Source: Actinomyces sp. zg-332
Lineage (GTDB): Bacteria; Actinomycetota; Actinomycetes; Actinomycetales; Actinomycetaceae
Length of the DNA stretch: 64,000 nucleotides
Reading direction: 5' to 3'
Assembly: GCF_011751945.2 (NCBI RefSeq)
Contig: NZ_CP064951.1
Span: forward strand, 434,001-498,000
This document shows positions 30,266-42,891 of this stretch, piece by piece (position 1 is the stretch's first letter; every line of letters starts with the position of its first letter). Below the pieces are notes generated by a model that was not told the origin of the DNA, made no database searches, and saw nothing but the letters and a program-made list of their open reading frames with translations. Both the position numbers and the translations under genes were made by a program.

Positions 30266-30338
30266 GGGGCTATAGCGCAGTTGGTAGCGCGCTTCCATGG
30301 CATGGAAGAGGTCACGGGTTCGATTCCCGTTAGCTCCA
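30266..30338 (+). tRNA. tRNA-Ala (anticodon GGC)
   Basis: The 73 bases fold as a cloverleaf: acceptor GGGGCTA / TAGCTCC with one G-T pair, D stem GCGC / GCGC, anticodon stem CTTCC / GGAAG around ATGGCAT (anticodon GGC), T stem ACGGG / CCCGT with TTCGATT, and discriminator A. The CCA end is not encoded. It decodes GCC and GCU. The GC-rich accessory island begins just after it. Confidence 0.97.
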
Positions 30339-30341
30339 CTG

Positions 30342-30379
30342 AAGGGACGCTCATTTTGATACAAAGTGGGCGTCCTTTT
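30342..30379 (+). terminator. Terminator directly after tRNA-Ala
   Basis: GGACGCTCATTTTG pairs with CAAAGTGGGCGTCC (14 bp including G-T pairs) around a three-base ATA loop; outer AAG/TTT pairs extend the stem and the T-run is TTTT. Confidence 0.88.
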
Positions 30380-30670
30380 GTATGCCCGAAATCTGAACGA
30401 AAAGCCAGGTCAGAGAGGATTTGTTTTCGTCTGGTCTGTTGGGCGGTGCCTGCAGGTAGGGGAGTAGGGCAGCCGAATTTCGGGTACTCGTGCTGCCTGG
30501 TGCGTGCCCGTGGGCTGAGCCGCCAAATTGTGCGGCTTGCGCCAAAAAGTATCCGAAGCGCCAAAAGGTATAGGCAGGTAGTGCGGAGCGTGGCGACTTG
30601 TTGGAAGGGGGGAGGAGTCCGTCGTTGCCGATCATGGGATCTTGCGGCGAGTATGCGTTGAGCGCTGCAC

Positions 30671-31535
30671 TCATCGCACTCGGTCTTGCCGACAATGAAC
30701 TTCACTCGATTGGCGTTGCGATCGCAGTCTAGATTTGGGCACCCTTTGACCCGCTAATCTTTCTCGAGAATTCTCGGAGCCATTGCTTTCGCCACCTCGG
30801 TTGTTAATTTCGACCTCTACTTCTATGCCGAGCGCATCGTTGGAGGCCGGGTCAATGAGGAGAGTCAAGTGACCTGATTCGAGATCTCGTTTGAGTGATT
30901 TGAACTCATCGAGTACAGCTGCTCTGCTTTCCCAAAGCCCCCGGCGAGGAGTTTGTCTGAAGGATCGTTCTCGACAATGGCACCCACGTTTGGGACGATG
31001 GTTGTCTCAAGGAAGTCTCGGTAGGAGTCGAGGGCCTCTACAAACGCTATTGCTTCGCCAGATTCAGCAAACAGTGCATCTTCGAATGTCCAGGGCCTTG
31101 TGGATGACTTCAAAGGATCGATGCACTGATGCCATCCTGCTCGCCTGTGCCATCGCACGATTCTTGTATTCATGTACTCCTGGTTTGCCAGGTAGCCAAC
31201 ATCTTCCTAGAGCTGTTCAATCGAATGGAAAGCAGCTGTAGACAAGGAAGCCAGAGCCTGAGTCCGTAAGAGATGCTGGAATTCAGGAGATTCTATTGCT
31301 GATGCCTCGCGAGCCAATAAGGCGCCTGCAAGATAGAGAGCGCGCCGGTCATTCGCTTGGCCTTGAGCGCCGCGTCCACCTGTGCGTTGATTGCATCGAC
31401 TGCTTCGAGGGCGGGGACCGGGGTTCGGGAGCGAGTGAAATGCCTCGGAGCAAACCTCCGTTGTAATATGCTCAACTTCAATGAAAGCTCGCAAACCCAC
31501 AGGTGAGCCAAAGAGGCCTGTGAATCCGTCCGCAT
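30671..31535 (-). pseudogene. Decayed gene of unknown function
   Basis: Reading the minus strand, one protein can be followed from 31535 to about 30671 through a frameshift near 31350-31370 (INAQVDAALKAKR joins DRRALYLAGALLAREASAI), an in-frame TAG at 31207, and a second frameshift near 30910 (KLLAGGFGKAEQ joins AAVLDEFKSLKRDLESGHLT). The pieces on each side of the TAG are in the same frame (EDVGYLANQEYMNTR follows it directly). I do not recognise the family. It lies back-to-back with the lanthipeptide genes. Confidence 0.55.
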
Positions 31536-31703
31536 CCCCTAGCTGCTCCCCGCTCAGACAGGCGGTCGGACACTCACGTCACCACCGTTCCACGCCACAG
31601 CTCATAGACGTAGGTTCGGTTCGCCATTCATTGAGTCTGGATCGGTCGTTGTTACAAGTCGACTACCATTGCAACGAAATCAAGCAAAGGCCTTCACAAT
31701 CCT

Positions 31704-31758
31704 TATGATATCTGACACACTGGAAACCGTGAATCTCGCCGCAGTTCAAGGAGGATCA
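31704..31758 (+). promoter_or_regulatory. Possible -10 box and strong ribosome binding site before the precursor gene
   Basis: TATGAT at 31704-31709 could be a -10 box; no good -35 is seen. AAGGAGGA at about 31749-31755 is a very strong ribosome binding site that fixes the precursor start at ATG 31760. Confidence 0.4.
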
Positions 31759-31759
31759 A

Positions 31760-32008
31760 ATGTCGACTACGACTCAGATGCCGCAACCCGTCACTACTGA
31801 CCCGAAGACCGACGCTGATCAGCTCTTCACCGATCTCGTCTATTCCTTTGGTACTGCATCTAAGCTCACGGCCTCGGGGTACGATGGGTCTATCGAGGCA
31901 ATGAGCCTCACACGTACAAGCCCCTGCGACTGCAGTAGCTGCGCCTCGATTGTTCCAACGTCATGCGGTCAAACGTATGGCGCCGCTGCTCTATGCCCGT
32001 ATTGCTGA
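31760..32008 (+). CDS. lanA: Lanthipeptide (class I) precursor peptide
   Basis: An 82-residue peptide with a near-perfect ribosome binding site, directly upstream of lanB and lanC. The first ~49 residues, Cys-free and acidic to neutral, look like a leader; LFTDLVY (residues 22-28) may stand in for the FNLD-type box read by LanB. The C-terminal ~33 residues hold all six Cys (56, 58, 61, 69, 79, 82) and nine Ser/Thr after residue 50, enough for several (methyl)lanthionine rings. It ends in a Cys-Pro-Tyr-Cys motif. I do not recognise it as any named lantibiotic. The cleavage site is unknown; no Gly-Gly or Pro-Gln site is obvious. Cluster context makes the call firm, the ring pattern is open. Confidence 0.8.
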   Translation: MSTTTQMPQPVTTDPKTDADQLFTDLVYSFGTASKLTASGYDGSIEAMSLTRTSPCDCSSCASIVPTSCGQTYGAAALCPYC

Positions 32009-32079
32009 CTTCCTAGGTGTCTTTCAGAGCAAAGTCCCGGCATCAATTGGTTTTCTGATGAGAAGGAAGCAGCGGAGGA

Positions 32080-32679
32080 ATGACCAACTATTCTAAGTAT
32101 GCTCCCTTTTCAGGGGTCTATGCACGCAGAATCAGTGCATTGTCTCACGCTGAAGCCAGGCGATTGTGCCGCGAGCTTGTATCTATTATTCACGCTCACG
32201 ACCAAGTTGCGTTTGATGAAGCTCGAATGAATAATCAGCTGCTTGATATCATTCGGGCCGCCAGGCCAGATCTTTACGCTTCAATTGAAGATCAATTCTC
32301 TCCGAATTTATCAGCGAGAGACGTACCAACTCGCAGAACAGATCGAGTCATACGATCAATCGAGAACTATGCATTGCGTTGCGCAAGTCGCGCTACGCCT
32401 TTCTCTCTTTCATCCAGTATCGTTTTCGATCTAGACCAAGAGATTTCGGACCCAGAATTAGAAGAGAGACCTTCCTATATCTTCACAGCTTTCGAAATGA
32501 GCAAAGACTCACCTAATGCTCCCGCACTCGCTGCAGATTCATGGCTCTTCAAGAACCAACTAATTACACGACTCTCACAATCTACGTATGAAGTCCCCGT
32601 TCCATGGAATGCGCATAAACATTCGCAATCGAGCGACCTATTCCTATTCAAGGGTCACCCTAAATTCCACACACTTTGA
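32080..32679 (+). CDS. lanB: Lantibiotic dehydratase LanB, N-terminal piece (frameshifted)
   Basis: These 199 residues match the start of the LanB glutamylation domain (Lant_dehydr_N), with the diagnostic ALRCASRATPFSLSSSIVFDL near residue 110 (compare R-TPFGLFAG in the family). LanB uses Glu-tRNA to activate and dehydrate Ser/Thr of the precursor. GGAGG lies just before ATG 32080. The frame is lost near 32640-32660: DLFLF should continue into SRVTLNSTHFEVL, which is in the frame one base over. Downstream residues to the stop at 32679 are off-frame. The rest of the enzyme is the next entry. Confidence 0.75.
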   Translation: MTNYSKYAPFSGVYARRISALSHAEARRLCRELVSIIHAHDQVAFDEARMNNQLLDIIRAARPDLYASIEDQFSPNLSARDVPTRRTDRVIRSIENYALRCASRATPFSLSSSIVFDLDQEISDPELEERPSYIFTAFEMSKDSPNAPALAADSWLFKNQLITRLSQSTYEVPVPWNAHKHSQSSDLFLFKGHPKFHTL

Positions 32680-34990
32680 AGTGTTGAATCGGGCTAACAC
32701 TGGTGTTCAGATTCAAACACTAATAAGGGAATTTGTCAGCCAATATGGTGTGAGCGAGCAGCGTCTTCGAGACGTCTTACTTAGCCTCATTGAGACTGGG
32801 CTACTAATTCAGATCCGTAATCCTGAACACTTTCTCGACGAGATTCGACCTGTCACGTTAAAGACTGATTCAATTGAGTCGCTTGCGACTATGAGCATAG
32901 ATCCAACAACGGTCATGGCTCGGACTCCGATGACCGAAGCAGCGCAGGTTCCAAACGACGGCAAGATCGCACGACACGTGGATACAACCATGTTATTACT
33001 CGAGCAGACGGCTCCCTCACAGATCAGCAACGCATACGATCAATGGTTAGACAAATTTGCCGAAAACTATGGATTTAATACGGCAGTCAATGCTCTCACG
33101 GTTTTCGATCCAATCGCAGGAATTGGACCAATTCAGCTCGGACTCGAAGACCAACCCTCTGGCACACTTGCCTCGCAGCCATTAGTAAGCTTTCTGTTGG
33201 ATGCGCACCATCCAAACCAGCTGCAGATGAAGAAGGACTTCTACATTCTCGATTCGAAAGTAGTTCACAGAGCACTCAGAGAGCGCAGACAGGACTCGTC
33301 TGGAAGGACAATCACTCACGATTCAAGAGTCAAGGACCTCATGTTTGAGTTGTTCGAGCATCCAACGTTGGGCCTTCTGTTCTTACCAGCGATCCTCGGG
33401 GCTACCGATCCAGGTGCACTCCTTGGCCGATTCGCTTCGCTCCTCAGTTCAAATGAAGTATCGCGGATCTGGGGTCAAGGTTCTTCCGAACAGATCGAGG
33501 TCGTTCAGCTGCGCCCGTTCTTTCACAGTCGACAATGTCAACAGCTTTCGGCCCAGTTTCAGCCCCCGGGACGGTACATATGCCCTCAGGTCGCCAACCC
33601 ATACGATCCTTCGGCAATTTCTTTGTCCGAACTCCTATTCTGTCTCGCGGACGGGGGCATGAGGATCCTAGACCGAAGAACAGGACTACCAATCCTCGTT
33701 CAATCTCAGTCAATGATTACGCTCGCACAGTTCGATCCAATCTCGAAAACAATTCTCGCTATCGCCCGCCGCGGAGAACCTGCCTACACACTTTTCCAAG
33801 AAGAGCCTTGGAGTGCAAGGGAGACGCACCGTCCCGGAGTCATTCTCGATGGTGTTGTCCTCCGACGACCTCAATGGAGGCTGCCCGCTGGAATGTTCTC
33901 CGACTACTCAGATGATGAGCCCTTCCGACGCTGGAAACAAATGGTTAATCTTCCAGATCATGTCAGAATTGGAAGGGGCGATCAAATACAGGAGTTCGAC
34001 CTCTCAAACATAGATGAATACCAAGCTTTCAAACGATCAGTAGGCCCGAGGGCGTCGATCCTAGATGCCGCATTTTTCACCCTCAACACAGACGACCGTA
34101 AAGTTGAATATTTATATAGATATGTCCCAAAGTCAACGAATTCAATCCAGACTCTGAGACCTTCAGAAACTTTTTCGCTGATCGATCCGAAAGACGGCGA
34201 TAAAGTAGAAGAATGGCGCGCATACGAATTTACTACACCATCCGGTTTGATACCGGAGATTTCCGACTTTCGTCAGGTAATTCAATTTTTCAAAGACATG
34301 GGCGGCAAAAATTGGCACTTTCTTCACTATACCAACCCCGATGCCCATTTGAGACTGAGATTCCAGCTGCCTCCCGAGGCGAATGCGCAATCAAAGATTC
34401 TTAACGGGCTTGACGCTTTGATAGAAAGCCTCCGAGGCGAAAACTACAAAAAAGTTCGAATTGTCGAATTTTTTCCCGAATATACACGTTATACTCGAAC
34501 GACATCTATCGAATCAATTTTTGAAATCTTTACCAGAAGTTCCGAGCTCGCTTTGAGTGAGCGGCTCACTCTCCAGACAACACAGAATCGCAAACAGGTC
34601 ATCCTATCCGCCGTAACCTCATTTATGGAGCTTGTCCGATACTATTTTCCAGAAACTTGGGCGACAGCGATCGTTAAAGCATTCAAAAGGGGATCGTTCG
34701 AGGATCCGAAACACTTCGATAAGCAGAGAACTTCATTACGATACGAAATCGTACACGAAATCGAAGATAAAGTGCTCGAAGTTGGGCCTCGCTATAAAAA
34801 TTACAATGAGATTGGCACCGACATTATACCCTCAGTTATGCATATGCACTTTAATCGCGTCGCCGGAATCGATCGGGGTGGAGAAGCTGATTACACCGCG
34901 ATTATCAGGAAGTTTTCGTTATCGCGACTAGCTCGATTAAAGATGAGATGTTATTTAGAGTCATCAGACACTCCGGTGGAATCAGACTAG
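32588..34990 (+). CDS. lanB: Lantibiotic dehydratase LanB, main part with SpaB_C elimination domain
   Basis: This frame stays open for 800 codons; true LanB sequence starts about residue 20 (SRVTLNSTHFEVLNR). It carries the rest of the glutamylation domain (QYGVSEQRLRDVLLSLIETGLL) and, from about residue 545, the glutamate-elimination (SpaB_C) domain, marked by GKNWHFLHYTNPDAHLRLRF. Joined to the preceding piece, the enzyme would be about 970 residues, normal for a full-length class I LanB. The join needs a +1 shift near 32640-32660. A true mutation, an assembly error in CTATTCCTATTC, or unlikely recoding could explain it. The ATG at 32588 may or may not be used. LanC follows after 4 bases. 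Confidence 0.8.
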   Translation: MKSPFHGMRINIRNRATYSYSRVTLNSTHFEVLNRANTGVQIQTLIREFVSQYGVSEQRLRDVLLSLIETGLLIQIRNPEHFLDEIRPVTLKTDSIESLATMSIDPTTVMARTPMTEAAQVPNDGKIARHVDTTMLLLEQTAPSQISNAYDQWLDKFAENYGFNTAVNALTVFDPIAGIGPIQLGLEDQPSGTLASQPLVSFLLDAHHPNQLQMKKDFYILDSKVVHRALRERRQDSSGRTITHDSRVKDLMFELFEHPTLGLLFLPAILGATDPGALLGRFASLLSSNEVSRIWGQGSSEQIEVVQLRPFFHSRQCQQLSAQFQPPGRYICPQVANPYDPSAISLSELLFCLADGGMRILDRRTGLPILVQSQSMITLAQFDPISKTILAIARRGEPAYTLFQEEPWSARETHRPGVILDGVVLRRPQWRLPAGMFSDYSDDEPFRRWKQMVNLPDHVRIGRGDQIQEFDLSNIDEYQAFKRSVGPRASILDAAFFTLNTDDRKVEYLYRYVPKSTNSIQTLRPSETFSLIDPKDGDKVEEWRAYEFTTPSGLIPEISDFRQVIQFFKDMGGKNWHFLHYTNPDAHLRLRFQLPPEANAQSKILNGLDALIESLRGENYKKVRIVEFFPEYTRYTRTTSIESIFEIFTRSSELALSERLTLQTTQNRKQVILSAVTSFMELVRYYFPETWATAIVKAFKRGSFEDPKHFDKQRTSLRYEIVHEIEDKVLEVGPRYKNYNEIGTDIIPSVMHMHFNRVAGIDRGGEADYTAIIRKFSLSRLARLKMRCYLESSDTPVESD

Positions 34991-34994
34991 TGAT

Positions 34995-36326
34995 ATGAAT
35001 ATTGACCTGGATTTTGAAAGACTATCGGAACTCTATCTTGATCAGATCAAGCTTCGCTTGCAACCAAATTCAGACCGTTACTTATTTGACATTTCTAAGA
35101 TGAATCCGAGGGCCGCAATCTCTGATCTTCTTTCTTATCCTTCGGGCGTTGGAGGCTATATATATTGTCTCCGGCTAATCGCAAGCGCAACAGGTTCGCT
35201 TGAGGCTAAAAGTCTAGCAGACCGCCTCTTTGAACTCGCACTTGTTACATATAAACAAAATCGAACAGACATTCGCGCGATTCAAGAACTATTCGCATTA
35301 GCTGATTTGAGCATCTCGCAATACGGCAAGGCCGATTCGCACTTGCAGACAATCATTTTAGAATGGATGGATACCATTTCAGTCGCTCTCTTGGATCAAC
35401 TTGATCGGGAGGACTTGATTCATCACGGCTTTGTAAGTACCGATTTGGTGTCGGGCATTTGTCGTGGAATTCTGCTTGTTGAGGGATATTGCGCTCCTCA
35501 TTCACTCGAATTACTTCAAGAGCTTCTGAAACTTGAGACTTGTGAAAGTGGCAAGCGAGTTAGAGCTTCTTTCAGCGGCGCTCCATCTCTTGTTTGGGCT
35601 GAAAAGGCGGTGGTTGCAAGCCATCGAAACTACGGAATCGTTCATGGTCTCGATGGAATTTGTACAACGCTTTGCAGCGCATTATCTCGTTATTGTACTA
35701 CGGACTCGTATGACGCAGTTACCTATGAGCGAGGTTTGGATACGGTTGATGATTATTTGGAATGGCGGATCGATTCGGCCGAAATGAAGATTGGCCAAAT
35801 TCCCATGACTGAAGTCTTGCTCAACGACGGATCATGCATCGATTGCTTTGCTGATGATGGGATATGGTGTTATGGCGGATCAGGATTGCTTGGCGCATGT
35901 AATGCCCGAATTGGCCTCGATAGCGGCCCATTCGCCCTGACAGACAAATTTGTCATGTTAGCTGATCGCGTATTTCATGATCCGGTTGCGAAGTCTCTCA
36001 CCTTATGTCACGGGGAATCCGGTCGCATTCTAAGTTTGCGCAATTTTAGTGACTTAATTGACTGTGCTTTTTCACAAGAGGAATTGCGCCTGGCTTTCTG
36101 TCAGCGTCTAGGGAAGCTACTCAGCAGGGGTGATTTGTCAGGATATCTCGATCCTGACCTACTGTTTTCTAACGATCCTCTTAATATTGGTGTTCTGTCC
36201 GGATTGGGAGGAGTGGTAATTGCTTATTTTGAAACATTATGCGAACGGTTGCCCCCGTCACATTTTGCAGAAAGTTGTCTATTGGCGGCTCCGTGGCTTC
36301 GGCCATATCGAACGCTCCATGTGTGA
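34995..36326 (+). CDS. lanC: Lanthionine cyclase LanC
   Basis: This intact 443-residue enzyme adds Cys thiols to dehydrated Ser/Thr. It has the LanC toroid motifs: NYGIVHGLDG (His 217), GIWCYGGSGLLGAC (zinc Cys 292) and SLTLCHGESG (zinc Cys 338 and His 339). A late LSGLGGVVIAYFETL matches the last helical repeat. Its start is 4 bases past the lanB stop, so translation is coupled. An IS remnant abuts the 3' end. Confidence 0.9.
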   Translation: MNIDLDFERLSELYLDQIKLRLQPNSDRYLFDISKMNPRAAISDLLSYPSGVGGYIYCLRLIASATGSLEAKSLADRLFELALVTYKQNRTDIRAIQELFALADLSISQYGKADSHLQTIILEWMDTISVALLDQLDREDLIHHGFVSTDLVSGICRGILLVEGYCAPHSLELLQELLKLETCESGKRVRASFSGAPSLVWAEKAVVASHRNYGIVHGLDGICTTLCSALSRYCTTDSYDAVTYERGLDTVDDYLEWRIDSAEMKIGQIPMTEVLLNDGSCIDCFADDGIWCYGGSGLLGACNARIGLDSGPFALTDKFVMLADRVFHDPVAKSLTLCHGESGRILSLRNFSDLIDCAFSQEELRLAFCQRLGKLLSRGDLSGYLDPDLLFSNDPLNIGVLSGLGGVVIAYFETLCERLPPSHFAESCLLAAPWLRPYRTLHV

Positions 36327-36329
36327 ACA

Positions 36330-36715
36330 CGAGTGTTGATTCCAGAACGTCGATTTCGTACAGTGGATGAATGGCTTTTCTCTGCTCTGATTTGCACAGT
36401 TGAGGTGTGTCGCGCCTTTAGAGTTTTGAGGATTGCTTGAACTGGTAGTGTGACGGCGGGTTTACCGATGAAGTCATGGCCAGCGATTCGCATGGTGACG
36501 TGGTGCAGCGGTAGGAGTTCTTGAATTGCTTTCTTGAGTGTGAGGCCGGTTTTGCTCTGAGTTCCTCGGACTACAGCGAGGGCTGTGAACACGAAAGTGA
36601 GGTGGGCTTCGATCGCTTCTTGGGCGTGGTAGAAGATGGGGCGGGCTCGCAGGTCTGTCTTGGACATGCGGAAGGACTGCTTGACGTACCACAGGTCGTG
36701 GCAGGAACTGATCAC
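36330..36715 (-). pseudogene. Remnant of an IS1634/IS4-like transposase, C-terminal part
   Basis: The minus-strand reading CHDLWYVKQSFRMSKTDLRA, then RPIFYHAQEAIEAHLTFVFTALAV, is the C-terminal region of IS1634-type DDE transposases (the Y-LW-VE-SFR-SK motif that holds the last acidic residue; here the Glu is Gln/Lys in YVKQ). The N-terminal two thirds are missing; the fragment begins abruptly about 36715 next to the IS3 remnant. The reading frame runs on into the lanC 3' end without its own stop. Confidence 0.7.
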
Positions 36716-36767
36716 CTCCCGACTTTGCACAGTTTTTGTGTGTCATTTCGCCAGAGCATTGAGGATG

Positions 36768-37046
36768 TGACGCCAACTTCAAAATTTCATTCGTGCGCCG
36801 CAGCTCCGCGTTCTCCTGACGCAAACGCTTGAGTTCGGCGCTTTCCTCAGTGGAAACCCGAGGACGGACTCCGGCATCCACACGCGCTCGCATCACCCAG
36901 CGCCGAAGAGGTTCCCTCGACGTCCCCAACTTCATCGCGGTATCGGCGATCACGCGGGTTTCAGATACTCCCAGATTATCCCGCAGACGATCCTCAACAA
37001 GCCTGACAGCCCGCTCCCCAAAAACTTTTATATAGTTCCTTGGCAT
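36768..37046 (-). pseudogene. Truncated IS3-family transposase OrfA
   Basis: From ATG 37046 the product has a helix-turn-helix (RLVEDRLRDNLGVSETRVIAD to TSREPLRRWVMRARVDAG) and the leucine-zipper-like ELKRLRQENAELRRTNEILKLAS typical of IS3 OrfA. The homology stops at residue 93, and no OrfB with a DDE domain follows. The break point falls next to the IS1634-like fragment, so two elements were broken or joined here. Confidence 0.8.
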
Positions 37047-37139
37047 GCGAAATCCTCTCACAAAAACCTCGGAACAAAACCCGGGATGCTTCAACGCCGA
37101 ATCCTTGCTGTGCGGGGGAACCTTGTGAGATACTAAATT

Positions 37140-37331
37140 ATGACTATCGCTAAATGGATTGTACTCGCGGTTCTCGTGCTAGTTGGATTTGCCATTTGGT
37201 GGCATTTCTCTCTGCGAAGGAGAATTGACAAGAGAATGCATGAAGCTCCGCCCGAAGAGCGTGAAGCTTTGATGAAAGTTCAACGAGATATTGATCGTGG
37301 CAAGGCGGCGCGCCAGGGATTCTTCTTCTAG
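37140..37331 (+). CDS. Small single-pass membrane protein, unknown function
   Basis: A 63-residue ORF with one hydrophobic segment (WIVLAVLVLVGFAIWWHFSL) followed by a basic stretch and a charged amphipathic tail (APPEEREALMKVQRDIDRGK). The composition and length look like a real small protein. I do not recognise a family. It could be an accessory or immunity-type protein of the island, but nothing in the sequence proves it. Confidence 0.5.
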   Translation: MTIAKWIVLAVLVLVGFAIWWHFSLRRRIDKRMHEAPPEEREALMKVQRDIDRGKAARQGFFF

Positions 37332-37472
37332 GTACCGTAGACTGCGACTCGTCTACAAGGAATGTCTGATGACTGGGCTTGGCCAGGATCGCGCTAACCA
37401 GAGACCTGTGGCAGCCAAATTAGTTGATCCGTCTGTGTGAGTATTCGGTAGTCACGATAGGGCGCCCAACGC

Positions 37473-37787
37473 ATGAACTTTGGGTTCGGACACGAGAGTT
37501 CTTCTCGGAGGTCTCTTGATACCCTAGTCTGCGCTCTGTGGGGCTACTCGTTCGAGAACGAGATCCGGGTCAAGGCCGGACGCACTCACTTCGATGAGTC
37601 TTTCACCACCCTCTCAGCACAATTGAATCGAGTAGTTCTTAGTGAGTGCTGGGATCTGTGCAGAGCTCTTCCCGATCGCATCCATTATCACTTCTTTCAA
37701 CTGGACTCCGAAAACAAGCCAGATAGATGTTCGGCGTTGTCTACGCTTGCAGGGCAGCGTTCTCACATTCAAGACTTGGCTATTTGA
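37473..37787 (+). CDS. Hypothetical protein
   Basis: A 104-residue ORF of ordinary composition, convergent with the ABC-3C-like ATPase gene and overlapping its 3' end by 8 bases. No motif is recognised and no good ribosome binding site precedes ATG 37473. It may be a chance frame in GC-rich DNA. Confidence 0.3.
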   Translation: MNFGFGHESSSRRSLDTLVCALWGYSFENEIRVKAGRTHFDESFTTLSAQLNRVVLSECWDLCRALPDRIHYHFFQLDSENKPDRCSALSTLAGQRSHIQDLAI

Positions 37788-39645
37788 ACTCGAGATCCTG
37801 TTCTCCTTCATCCTCACGTAGGTCGACCAAGAGTCCAGGTCTGTCTGCTTCATCATTAATGCCGAATACAAGTTCGGTCGCATCGTCACGGTCGAAGTGC
37901 GTGGTTGGTGTGACGTCGGTGTTGTTGAGAACGATCAGTTGCCCGTAGTCGCCGCTGTTAACCATGTAGTCGAATAGGTTCCGTAGGAGCCCAGTCTTGG
38001 GTCTGCCTGATTCGTCTCGGCTAGTGATGAGATTGTTGCCATCGGCTTGGTGTTCGAAGCCGAGTGTTGGCGTATCGATGACGACGATTGAGGGCTTGTG
38101 GATCGCGTGCTCATGAATGTAGCGACGGAGGGTAAGGACAAGCACGGTATTGAAGAACGCTCGGTATCCCTTTCCGTGTGAGCGTTTTGATTTTCGGCCG
38201 ATACGGATATCGAAGTCTGTCTGATCCAGATACGCCTGGTCTGCATCCTTGAATTGAGATTCAGCCAAGATTTCTTGCAGATACTTAGCCATGTCAGTAA
38301 AGAAGGAAGATGGAAAGAGATCCACAGGATCGTAGTCTTCGGTCGGCGCAGGTGGGCTGGTCAGTGTCGTGATCTGGTCGATTAGTTCGTCGTGTTGAGT
38401 GTCGAGCATACGACTTTCAGTGAGCCTCGCTTGGTGTGCTTCGAGGTCAGCAATTTGACTCTTGAGAGCTGTGATTCTCGGTAGGACCGCTTCAGAAAGT
38501 CTTGTTTCCGCAGATCGCTGCTCATCGCGGAGACTTTTCAGGTGAACTTCAAGCGCGGCAATCTGGTCATTGAGTGATGACTGTACTTGCGCAAGTTCTT
38601 CGAGGTCGCCCACCCGCATTTCTGCCTCTGCTTGTGCTGCCTCTTTGTAATCAGGCATTTCATGGTTAGACAGTGGGCTGCCACAAAAAGGGCAGTCTGA
38701 CGGTTCGGGCAATGTTTGAATCGCCTGTTGAGCGTCAGCAACGAAAGTGAGGCGCTTGATATCGCCGATGTAGACCGACGCTAGGTCCTCATATCGGTCG
38801 GCCGCCATGGTACGAACTGACAGTTCCTGTTCGACTGCAGAGATATTTCGTGTGAGTTCCGAAAGCTCCTGCCGTGCTTGATCTTGGATGGTGTTGAGTT
38901 GAGACAGCTCGGCAGTGAGTTGTGTGATTTCAGCGGTGATATCCCGGCCATCGTCTTCCCCGCGAAATTTCTTGAGTGTTTCACGCATGCGACCAACCTG
39001 ATCGAGACGCTCACCGAGAAAGGGAAGCAGGATGTTCTTTCTTGATTCAACTACGGCGGGATCCTCATGCTCAGGAAGGAGCGAGAGATCGCGGTCATAA
39101 AACAATGTGAGGAATGCTGAGAGAGTGGCGAATTTCGTCGTCGTGAAGATCGATTCCTCTGATGTGATTCGCCCTTCTGATCTATGCAATGTGTCTGAAA
39201 AGCTTTTCCAGGTTAGTGGTTTTCGACTGCCGTATTGGTTGGTAAGAACTACACGTCGTTCTTTGATCCCCAAGAGACGGAGCAATAGGTCTGAGACCGT
39301 TACCCCGCTGGCTGAAGATTCCGTGGGTTGTGCAGGATATTCGTCATAGGGAATGCCGAATACTGGATCTGCGGCAACCGTGATTTTTGAAGAACCAATG
39401 GTGCGAATAAGTTTGACTTTCCCTTCGTCGGTGCGGAGGGTCATCGAGATGACGGAGTAGCCGGTTCCAGCAGAAAATGGCCTGGTTGAGCCAGCCAGCA
39501 TGTACTTGATTGTCTTTGCGAGATAGGTTTTCCCGGTATCTGATGGGCCATGGATGATGTTAAACCCGGGCTTGAAGTCGACTTGTGTTGAGGCAACGCC
39601 ATCTCCTGAATAGATGATGTTTTCAATCCAGAACCCGTTCTTCAT
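37780..39645 (-). CDS. Zinc-hook ABC/SMC-type ATPase, ABC-three-component (ABC-3C) system-like
   Basis: This 621-residue protein has Walker A GPSDTGKT (33-40) after an N-terminal strand pair, two coiled-coil arms (about 210-310 and 340-430), a Rad50-like zinc-hook CPFC (318-321) between them, a signature-like SHGKGYRAFFNTVL (489-502) and Walker B IVVIDTP (520-526), with a late D-loop/His-switch region. The ABC-3C systems described in comparative genomics join such an ATPase with a small middle component and an effector, as biological-conflict or phage-defence units. Here it is the last of three overlapping minus-strand genes, so I infer that role. ATPase cycling probably gates the effector. 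Its Walker B lacks the second acidic residue (IDTP). Confidence 0.75.
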   Translation of the reverse strand: MKNGFWIENIIYSGDGVASTQVDFKPGFNIIHGPSDTGKTYLAKTIKYMLAGSTRPFSAGTGYSVISMTLRTDEGKVKLIRTIGSSKITVAADPVFGIPYDEYPAQPTESSASGVTVSDLLLRLLGIKERRVVLTNQYGSRKPLTWKSFSDTLHRSEGRITSEESIFTTTKFATLSAFLTLFYDRDLSLLPEHEDPAVVESRKNILLPFLGERLDQVGRMRETLKKFRGEDDGRDITAEITQLTAELSQLNTIQDQARQELSELTRNISAVEQELSVRTMAADRYEDLASVYIGDIKRLTFVADAQQAIQTLPEPSDCPFCGSPLSNHEMPDYKEAAQAEAEMRVGDLEELAQVQSSLNDQIAALEVHLKSLRDEQRSAETRLSEAVLPRITALKSQIADLEAHQARLTESRMLDTQHDELIDQITTLTSPPAPTEDYDPVDLFPSSFFTDMAKYLQEILAESQFKDADQAYLDQTDFDIRIGRKSKRSHGKGYRAFFNTVLVLTLRRYIHEHAIHKPSIVVIDTPTLGFEHQADGNNLITSRDESGRPKTGLLRNLFDYMVNSGDYGQLIVLNNTDVTPTTHFDRDDATELVFGINDEADRPGLLVDLREDEGEQDLEFK

Positions 39646-40103
39646 CGCTCACCTTCCTCGGGAGTGCCCAGTCCCTGTCGTTCAACTTGTTTGATGACTT
39701 CATCCTCACTGTGCGAGTCAACGAAAGGGAGAATCGATTCCACGGCTCGTCGAAATTCTGAGGCATATTGGTTCATCAACTGTCGGGAGAATTGTTCCCC
39801 GGTTGTGTTGATCTTGAATCGGATTCCTGTGGGGGTTGTCTGCGGATCTATCAGTCCTCGTGTGACGGCAAAGCGGATACCCTGGTGAATTTGTTGTGTT
39901 CGGGTTGCGAGTTCTGAGGCCGAATAGATCGAATTGCCGTGAAGGTTGGTTGAGTACATCCCAAAATTTGCAGCGTTTGTTGCCATGAAATCGATCGCCA
40001 CCAGCATTCGTTGTGTTCGTGCCAGGTGAGGCCTGGCGGCGAGAATCATTGTGATTCGTGATGCGAGTGACAGATCAGTGTTGTAGAGGTTACGAATTGT
40101 CAT
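39642..40103 (-). CDS. ABC-3C middle component-like protein
   Basis: This 153-residue protein looks like the middle component of ABC-3C systems: LARTQRMLVAIDFMATNAANFG, NSIYSASELATRTQQIHQGIRFA, a GLIDPQTTPTGIRFKIN wing and a QYASEFRRAVESILPFV helix, a winged helix-turn-helix-like fold. It overlaps the ATPase start by 4 bases and the effector-fragment stop by 14, so the three were one translationally coupled operon. Its job would be to link the ATPase to the effector. Confidence 0.7.
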   Translation of the reverse strand: MTIRNLYNTDLSLASRITMILAARPHLARTQRMLVAIDFMATNAANFGMYSTNLHGNSIYSASELATRTQQIHQGIRFAVTRGLIDPQTTPTGIRFKINTTGEQFSRQLMNQYASEFRRAVESILPFVDSHSEDEVIKQVERQGLGTPEEGER

Positions 40104-40524
40104 CTGCCCACCTCAACTTGTCATCGTTGACGAGCATGTGCATGATACCGTGACGCTGTCGCATGCCAAATAGGCGCGGCGTGTTGGACACAGGGGATTT
40201 GTTCAGAGAAATTCGTGCGGCCTGTTCCAATGTGGCAAGTAGCCGCTCATACTCGGACGGATGATTCCTCTTGTATGTTGGGCGAACACCGTGGTAGGCC
40301 TCATCCTTAATTGATTCAAATTCATCTTCACCGTCGAGGCTTACGTCTTTCAGTAATTCTCGAAGTGTGTCCGCAAGGTAGTAGTCCTGGCGCGCTTCAT
40401 TGAAATCTTCGAGGTAGTCGCCGCCGTGATCTTGGAGGGCCTCGAGAGAAATATCTATGCCTGATTCTCGACACAAAACTGTTGTCAGCTGTTCTGTGTA
40501 CTTCTTCTCTTGATTTGCAATCTT
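40090..40524 (-). pseudogene. Truncated ABC-3C effector, C-terminal domain only
   Basis: The frame opens after a TGA at 40525-40527 and runs KIANQEKKYTEQLTTVLCRE to the end. The sequence DFNEARQDYYLADTLRELLKD to RHGIMHMLVNDDKLRW resembles the ABC-3C C-terminal domain that attaches effectors to the complex. The N-terminal effector domain (in known systems a nuclease, peptidase or similar) is missing because the island ends here: upstream sequence is AT-rich host-like DNA. There is no good start codon (a TTG at 40476 at best). So the system is probably inactive. Confidence 0.65.
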
Positions 40525-41031
40525 TCAAAATAATGTTCAGCAAATAAAGATTATAAAAACAAACACTATAAATTACTTTGAAAACTATAACCTTCAAGCA
40601 ATATCTGACCTATTTAGAAAAATCTTCCTTGGAATGCTGAAAAGACGGTATTCTATACCGCATAGAATGACGAGTATAATATCAAAATGCTGAAGAAGGC
40701 CCATAAAAATATATAAATAGTTATTTGCAAAATAATGTTACGTATAAATATGGATGCTTATTAATTAGCCAAAACTCCTCATAACGCTTATTACATAATA
40801 GCTACACTGACCTATTTCAAAACTTATTTACAGAGAACAGAGGATTTTCATAACGTTTAGCACAATATATATAAAACAAAAGCTCTAAGCCATAACCACT
40901 AAACTAGTGATTCGGCTCAGAGCCACAAAATATAAAGGTTTGCAAAACAAAGATAGATAAAGCTTCTATAACACAAATTAACTACCGAATCTTTTTGCGT
41001 AATTATAAGAAGCTACCTAAGACTTGTATCC
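40525..41031. other. AT-rich stretch at the right edge of the island
   Basis: About 500 bases with no gene. It starts exactly where the effector fragment is cut, and contains the terminator of the glycosyltransferase gene. No direct repeat of the tRNA-Ala end is seen. Confidence 0.6.
40878..40924 (-). terminator. Terminator of the glycosyltransferase gene
   Basis: On the minus strand GGCTCTGAGCC pairs with GGCTTAGAGCT, and ATCACTA with TAGTGGT, with small mismatches; the hairpin is followed by TTTTGTTTTAT. It lies about 110 bases past the gene stop. Confidence 0.65.
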
Positions 41032-42891
41032 CTATTTTCTAATCTTTGAGTAGGTTTTGCGAGCTAATCTACCAATTCTACTTTTACGAGGTAGTAGCTT
41101 TACTAGAATCCTTTTTACGAGCGACTTAATCCTGCCTAAAATACTAGGCTTATGTATTATCAAGTTTCTTTGCATACGCATTATAATAGATTCATAGTAT
41201 CCACTTTCTTTAGCGTATTTCCAGAATAATTCCGCGTAATCTACCTCAGGATCACTCCATGGTTTATCTGGACCAGCGTAGTGAATAATCTTAGGATTCT
41301 TATGTGCTAAGTCATATTCATCGCTTAGATACTTTGGAGCGCGAGAAATAATTTCTGGGCGTCTCATATATCGCCAGTTGAACATTACGTTCCAAGTCAT
41401 ATCAACGAATTTTACTCTTCCTTGTGCAAGGTTATTCAATACATCTTGGTCTAGCAACTCCCATTGGTAAGAGCCTGCATATTTCAACATTTCTTCAGTT
41501 GAATATGTTTTTCTAAATTCTTCTAAGTTGAATAAGATAACACCTGCTTGGAAGTAATTATATGGTTCCTTAATCTTTAGAATATTGTCCATATAATGCT
41601 TTTTATCTGGGAGAAAACCATTGTATAGGCCAGCAGTATCAGCGTCATGACAAGCTGCAAGTAGTACACCAGTGACATCAGTCTTATACAGCTCAGCAAC
41701 GTCATGGTTTACAACTAAGTCAGAGTCCAAGTATAAAATTTTCTCGTAATTAGGCATGATTTTTGGCATAAATAACCTAAACCACGTTTCGATAGTGAAG
41801 TGTCCTCTTAGGAAAAGGTGTTTAAACTCATTTTCAAAGCGTGATATATCAACAAAACGCAACGAGAAATTACTGTTATCTTTGAAGATATCGTTTAGTC
41901 TGCGTTGATTTACAGGTGAGATATTCTTGTTCATTACGAATATATCGTAATTATTTTCATTAGATGAATTTTGTTTTATTGATGTAAGTACTGTTGCTAC
42001 GTATGGAACATAATAGTCATCTGCAGCTAATGCTATAGCAACATTGTTGTCCTCGAAAGCTGGTTTTAGCTCCGGGAATGGATCAGTTTTCGTAAGTAGT
42101 ACTGTTGGCAGTTCCCTAATTTTTAGTTGTTTATGATCTTTTAGATGTGCAATATAGATGTTTAGGAGACGTTCTGCTAAGTGTCCTGGTGTCCTGATTG
42201 CTTCTACAGAGTAATCTGTGTAATCAATTCTGTTATCGCATTCAAATAAAATATCGAAAAGCCATTCATTGTATTCGTTGAATAAATCTTTTCGCATTAT
42301 GAACATGTTATTTAGGTAAGTTTTTTTACCAGATAAGTATTTTTCTGCGTATGGTATGTAAATTGGATATTTTTCTTTGAGAACATCTAGCATGATGTCT
42401 AAGTCTTTTTCATGTAAGTAACCGGAACCACAGTATTGTTCACGTATATTTTTACCCATATTAGGCATTAATGTGATGTCTTTAGCTTCAGGTAGAACAA
42501 TATCGCATTCTTGTACTAGCTCTTGTATATGGTTTTCTGATAAATCATACTTTTCAATTACAGCTTTGCTGAGATTTGCCTCTTCTAGAGTACCCCATAC
42601 ACTAGTATCTTTTGAGTATTTGTTATTAAAAGCAAAATACCTTCTATAGTGGAAAAATCCATAGTAATCGTAGTCGCAGTTTTTCCATGCCCAGTATTGT
42701 GCTGTCAATTCGCAGAATCTTGGGTTTTTTTCAGATATATTCTCACCATTATCATCTTGTAGGAAATTTGGAATCCTGTTTCTTCCTTTTATTCCTGCTC
42801 CTACTTGTACGGGAGCGAAAATATCATTTTCAATGTATTCTGATAGCTTATGCGAAGATACAAATATTTTAATAGAAGGTTTGTTATTCAT
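41032..42891 (-). CDS. DUF4422 - GT8 two-domain glycosyltransferase
   Basis: This 619-residue protein has an N-terminal DUF4422 domain (IKIFVSSHK, then PRFCELTAQYWAWKN and YGFFHYRRYF), a family linked to capsule or surface polysaccharide glycosyl transfer. From about residue 280 it has a GT8 domain: IALAADDYYVPYVATVLTSI, the DxD motif YLDSDLVVNHDV (Mn/UDP-sugar binding), FQAGVILFNLEEF and a C-terminal HYAGPDKPW. It ends in a basic tail (RKSRIGRLARKTYSKIRK) that could contact the membrane. It probably adds two sugars to a surface glycan. It stands alone and is AT-rich like the chromosome, just outside the island. Start ATG 42891. Confidence 0.85.
   Translation of the reverse strand: MNNKPSIKIFVSSHKLSEYIENDIFAPVQVGAGIKGRNRIPNFLQDDNGENISEKNPRFCELTAQYWAWKNCDYDYYGFFHYRRYFAFNNKYSKDTSVWGTLEEANLSKAVIEKYDLSENHIQELVQECDIVLPEAKDITLMPNMGKNIREQYCGSGYLHEKDLDIMLDVLKEKYPIYIPYAEKYLSGKKTYLNNMFIMRKDLFNEYNEWLFDILFECDNRIDYTDYSVEAIRTPGHLAERLLNIYIAHLKDHKQLKIRELPTVLLTKTDPFPELKPAFEDNNVAIALAADDYYVPYVATVLTSIKQNSSNENNYDIFVMNKNISPVNQRRLNDIFKDNSNFSLRFVDISRFENEFKHLFLRGHFTIETWFRLFMPKIMPNYEKILYLDSDLVVNHDVAELYKTDVTGVLLAACHDADTAGLYNGFLPDKKHYMDNILKIKEPYNYFQAGVILFNLEEFRKTYSTEEMLKYAGSYQWELLDQDVLNNLAQGRVKFVDMTWNVMFNWRYMRRPEIISRAPKYLSDEYDLAHKNPKIIHYAGPDKPWSDPEVDYAELFWKYAKESGYYESIIMRMQRNLIIHKPSILGRIKSLVKRILVKLLPRKSRIGRLARKTYSKIRK

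Follow-up and report, generated by a model that had tools for sequence, protein, structure and literature searches.

A rare class I lanthipeptide precursor in Actinomyces sp. zg-332 and its lanABC operon, probably decaying on a laterally transferred island

Introduction

In class I lanthipeptide biosynthesis, LanB glutamylates Ser and Thr by way of Glu-tRNA and then eliminates the glutamate, and LanC adds Cys thiols (PMC7268733). The FxLD leader motif is not universal in this class; another motif is found in class I leaders of Bacteroidetes (PMC7268733). The present text concerns an operon of this kind in a 64,000-nucleotide stretch of the Actinomyces sp. zg-332 chromosome (contig NZ_CP064951.1, positions 434,001 to 498,000), hereafter the window. 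Like the nisin/NisB type, it has a LanB with glutamylation and elimination domains, a separate LanC, and a Cys/Ser/Thr-rich C-terminal core encoded directly upstream. Unlike that type, its lanB is broken and its leader lacks a strict FxLD box. The operon sits on a transferred island and is probably decaying in this genome through a frameshift in lanB.

The lanA-lanB-lanC operon

Positions 31760-36326 appear to hold a class I lanthipeptide operon in minimal form, with lanA, lanB and lanC in that order (Table 1). An earlier note made from the DNA letters alone, the sequence-only reading, had placed the precursor gene directly before lanB and lanC. Both genes are there, but the next one, lanB, is not intact: it is split across two frames. 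PF04738 and PF14028 score above the Pfam cut-off in the downstream piece, and the N-terminal start of PF04738 lies, slightly below cut-off, in the upstream piece. Alignment of the downstream piece with NisB shows the motifs HLRLR, EYTRY and MHMH in the elimination domain. The lanC product matches PF05147 (E=7e-11), and HGLDG, WCYG and LCHG, the zinc-site motifs of LanC, are all present.

The Schaalia vaccimaxillae lanB, ~99% identical, has one base fewer at the frameshift site and runs in a single frame through that point. Owing to the frame change caused by the extra T at ~32641, the window copy is predicted to encode no full-length LanB. Given the broken lanB, the peptide is now most likely left unmodified and perhaps unused. 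Could the two pieces instead act in trans, as natural split LanBs do? Those divide at the domain border (PMC7268733), whereas the break here falls ~187 residues into the glutamylation domain, past the RATPF region and away from that border. The genes of Schaalia and of a distant relative described below (G482) each keep one continuous frame at this place, and the downstream piece, whose ATG at 32588 is a mechanical open reading frame (ORF) start, is not preceded by a visible ribosome binding site. A two-piece LanB is therefore extremely improbable.

The lanA product (MSTTTQMPQPVTTDPKTDADQLFTDLVYSFGTASKLTASGYDGSIEAMSLTRTSPCDCSSCASIVPTSCGQTYGAAALCPYC) carries Cys at positions 56, 58, 61, 69, 79 and 82. 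The six-Cys, 82-residue ORF ending in CPYC, with its first three Cys packed in six residues (C56 to C61), had been described in the sequence-only reading, and direct reading of the ORF bears this out. The nine Ser/Thr counted there for the core hold if the core begins after S49; counted from S49 there are ten. In principle each of the six Cys could take part in a ring; between C69 and C79/C82 there is no Ser/Thr but T72. The strong ribosome binding site noted earlier is also present. The leader had been said to carry LFTDLVY where an FNLD-like box is expected; a strict FxLD motif is indeed missing, and LFTDLVY...SFGT stands instead. The precursor had further been called unfamiliar, and a hidden Markov model search of the peptide against Pfam and NCBIfam gave no family or precursor-model match up to E=10. 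We are not aware of any characterised peptide whose Cys residues are spaced in this way.

Table 1. Coordinates of the operon, the island and associated features (window positions unless a locus is named).
Feature	Position	Strand	Remarks
tRNA-Ala(GGC)	30266..30339	+	left edge of island
Island	30340..40526		~10.2 kb; 50.0% G+C against 34.6-35.3% in flanks
Shine-Dalgarno AAGGAGG	31748..31754	+	5 nt upstream of lanA ATG; read directly from sequence
lanA	31760..32008	+	82-aa six-Cys precursor; frame open in window copy
lanB, 5' part	32080..32679	+	start of Lant_dehydr_N, contains NYALRCASRATPF; premature stop after frameshift
lanB, 3' part	32588..34990	+	remainder of Lant_dehydr_N and Lant_dehydr_C (elimination domain)
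lanB frameshift	32641..32642	+	CTATTCC against CTATCC at Schaalia L002:10053; one extra T
lanC cyclase	34995..36326	+	443 aa, open; HGLDG (217), WCYG (291), LCHG (337)
IS3-type transposase helix-turn-helix remnant	36474..37094	-	indel at 36724 relative to Schaalia changes frame
Lamassu/ABC-3C defence ATPase LmuB	37780..39645	-	on island, separate from lanthipeptide
LmuC / ABC-3C middle component MC2	39642..40103	-	on island
LmuA remnant	40090..40526	-	C-terminal third only; island's right end falls inside
Second precursor A2 of G482	L011:9748-9972	-	overlaps lanB start in another frame

The island and its lateral transfer

The operon lies on an island, overlooked in the sequence-only reading, at which the G+C content jumps and which has a near-identical counterpart in Schaalia. 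It is 99.2% identical over 10.28 kb to a stretch of S. vaccimaxillae DSM 15804 (NZ_ATUX01000006.1, L002:7734-17937), which holds the same genes at the same site, directly after tRNA-Ala(GGC). Ahead of the tRNA, obg, proB, proA and nadD keep one order in both genomes and give only scattered matches of 65-74% identity. Because the island is 99.2% identical against 65-74% in the flanks, and its border coincides with a rise in G+C from 35 to 50%, the shared locus stems from lateral transfer and not from common descent. The 3' end of the tRNA was not found again at the right border, and Pfam detected no integrase in those stretches of the island that were scanned. A small difference between the copies is seen at 30526-30560, where a ~20-nt Schaalia block that adjoins similar GCCAAAA-GTAT units is absent from the window.

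Decay in two genomes

The Schaalia operon is damaged at other points. Its lanB has no frameshift but a TGA at codon 450, the only stop when the gene is read through, and in its lanA Gln6 is replaced by TAG at codon 6. Independent lesions thus appear to have broken lanB in the two genomes, the mutation differing between them. A comparison of lanABC in the two copies shows 20 substitutions, 15 nonsynonymous (two of them nonsense) and 5 synonymous. The synonymous share (5/20) compares with 30% expected without selection (p=0.81) and fits neutral drift. The IS3 remnant and the truncated LmuA agree with a degrading island.

Several points weigh against decay as the explanation. The single-base indel in lanB could be a sequencing error; the assembly is one contig of 99.4% completeness, which argues against many indel errors and does not settle a single site. 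In Schaalia lanA the TAG directly precedes an ATG, so that the precursor could restart six residues in. The neutrality test, with 20 substitutions only, is low in power. Substitution density is 0.45% in lanABC and 0.74% in the non-coding and insertion sequence (IS) parts, a difference that is not significant (p=0.11); the somewhat lower value in lanABC means that selection may have lapsed only recently.

A rival possibility is that the frameshift is an assembly error or is bypassed by slippage, in which case the operon would be functional in this strain and would yield the modified six-Cys peptide. Both lanA and lanC have open frames, lanB has no frameshift besides that of one T in a run of two, and the genome may derive from long reads, which are prone to indel errors. 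A TT is no long homopolymer, however, and inspection by eye shows neither a slippery site nor a further start preceded by a ribosome binding site. The Schaalia copy is independently broken, and the substitutions look neutral. A working operon is therefore unlikely, and decay through the lanB frameshift is preferred.

For the same reasons (the frameshift here, the nonsense codons in the sole close copy and the neutral substitution pattern) the view that this ORF is the best candidate for a peptide product in the window is not upheld. A clean precursor gene beside lanBC, even one with a strong ribosome binding site, does not count as evidence of a product. As read here, the island would be a clear example of one biosynthetic operon that was passed on laterally and then decayed independently in two species.

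A distant relative and the precursor family

The sequence-only reading had proposed looking for precursors of the same Cys pattern next to LanB/LanC. One such locus was found, in a distant actinobacterial genome of the same order and another family (G482; L011). Its locus has 62% G+C and the gene order lanA1-lanA2-lanB-lanC, with all frames open. Its LanB is 28% identical to that of the window (E=1e-39; 1/396 genomes of the order), and it is the sole intact distant relative among ~1,250 actinobacterial genomes sampled. The two clusters share the lanA-lanB-lanC order, the precursor core and the leader motif SF[GV]T; that of G482 differs in its intact lanB and its extra precursor, A2. The upstream precursor, A1, ends in WACNTWTCANCSAAPSPCGNTYLGMAMCVPCT; its gene follows the purine-rich AGGGAGGG.

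The core pattern common to the window precursor and A1 is CxxC-x(6-7)-CGxTY-x5-CxxC. None of 5000 shuffles reaches the alignment score of the two full-length peptides; for the core alone, with Cys fixed in place, 12/5000 reach the core score. For the leader alone the similarity is not significant (729/5000). A1 and A2 are paralogues (0/5000), and the window precursor compared with A2 alone gives no significant similarity (463/5000). A2 has only two Cys against six in A1; it could represent either a duplicate in decay or a further peptide.

Because the same Cys pattern precedes intact lanB and lanC in another genus, the lanA ORF is more than a chance ORF. The earlier assignment to class I gains from this recurrence as well as from the LanB- and LanC-family genes that adjoin lanA by Pfam. 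By sequence, lanA is thus taken to encode a genuine lanthipeptide precursor of class I, from a family that is rare and undescribed. It might be asked whether the ORF encodes a small zinc-ribbon-like protein instead (C58-x2-C61 ... C79-x2-C82), since two CxxC pairs lie 16-17 residues apart in both lanA and A1 of G482. That reading is very improbable: the ORF precedes lanB and lanC in two distant genomes and has a leader-core layout, a Cys outside the pairs falls in the conserved CGxTY, and the paralogue A2 retains the leader and CGxxY and lacks the CxxC pairs.

The lanthipeptide precursors themselves suggest an unusual leader. All three leaders (window, A1 and A2) contain SF[GV]T, preceded at a short distance by an acidic residue; A2 carries RSFGT and the window precursor YSFGT. 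Where FxLD is expected, the G482 leaders have VLSEF and LVLEG. FxLD-type actinobacterial precursors, for example L012 beside the LanB of G351, share a short Cys/Ser/Thr-rich core near lanB. L012 has the leader motif FDLD and the core DDGCSSTCTSRGCSATCRC, whereas the window precursor (P0001) matches no curated precursor model. As the pairwise leader and A2 similarities are not significant, the SF[GV]T box is a hypothesis drawn from the three-way alignment. Somewhat short of an even chance, we would tentatively place the window precursor, A1 and A2 in a small undescribed class I family, in which hydrophobic-x-x-Asp/Glu...SF[GV]T replaces FxLD and a minimal A-B-C operon on mobile islands relies on the host for trimming and export. 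Against this, a single distant cousin backs the family. Such a family would be a rare addition to class I lanthipeptides, with G482 the one locus where it is intact.

For the ancestral working form we infer the following. LanB would bind the leader through the hydrophobic-x-x-Asp/Glu...SF[GV]T box in place of FxLD, glutamylate Ser/Thr in the C-terminal ~30 residues with Glu-tRNA and eliminate the glutamate. LanC would then form rings between the six Cys and the dehydroalanine and dehydrobutyrine so produced. Genes for a protease, an exporter, LanP, LanT or immunity were not identified on the island, so leader removal and export would depend on genes elsewhere. In the window the extra T separates the first ~187 residues of LanB, RATPF included, from the remainder, and dehydration of the peptide has most likely ceased; the operon would then be inactive.

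Searches for further members

Within 213 Actinomycetaceae genomes, the LanB search found the host and one other, which we take to be S. vaccimaxillae; the genome with this same LanB is reported in the host's family. The class and phylum samples gave weak generic LanBs only, without the window precursor pattern. Among the 20 neighbourhoods scanned besides that of G482, none has the Cys pattern and one has an FxLD-type precursor. A precursor profile run on the 396 genomes of the order gave no convincing member beyond its building sequences, other matches beginning at E=2.8e-4 and looking like chance. IMG/VR, searched with lanC, lanA, lanB and the precursor profile, gave no matches, nor did plasmids searched with P0001, P0004 and the island; the island had no match in phages. 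Plasmids searched with the G482 LanB yielded only Streptomyces and other LanBs of ~24% identity. None of the papers searched pairs vaccimaxillae with a lantibiotic.

Other features of the island and host

The island also carries a Lamassu system, with matches to LmuB and LmuC and no complete LmuA effector. LmuA is truncated in the window and also, at another point, in Schaalia. In the window the match to its profile begins at profile position ~207; in Schaalia it begins at ~147, and there the gene continues beyond the point at which the window copy ends. Just beyond the island, in host-like low G+C, positions 41032-42891 encode a fused DUF4422 and glycosyltransferase family 8 protein. The host genome, 1.54 Mb, is the only member of its genus in the family sample, and the ~35% G+C of the window is unusually low for Actinomycetaceae.
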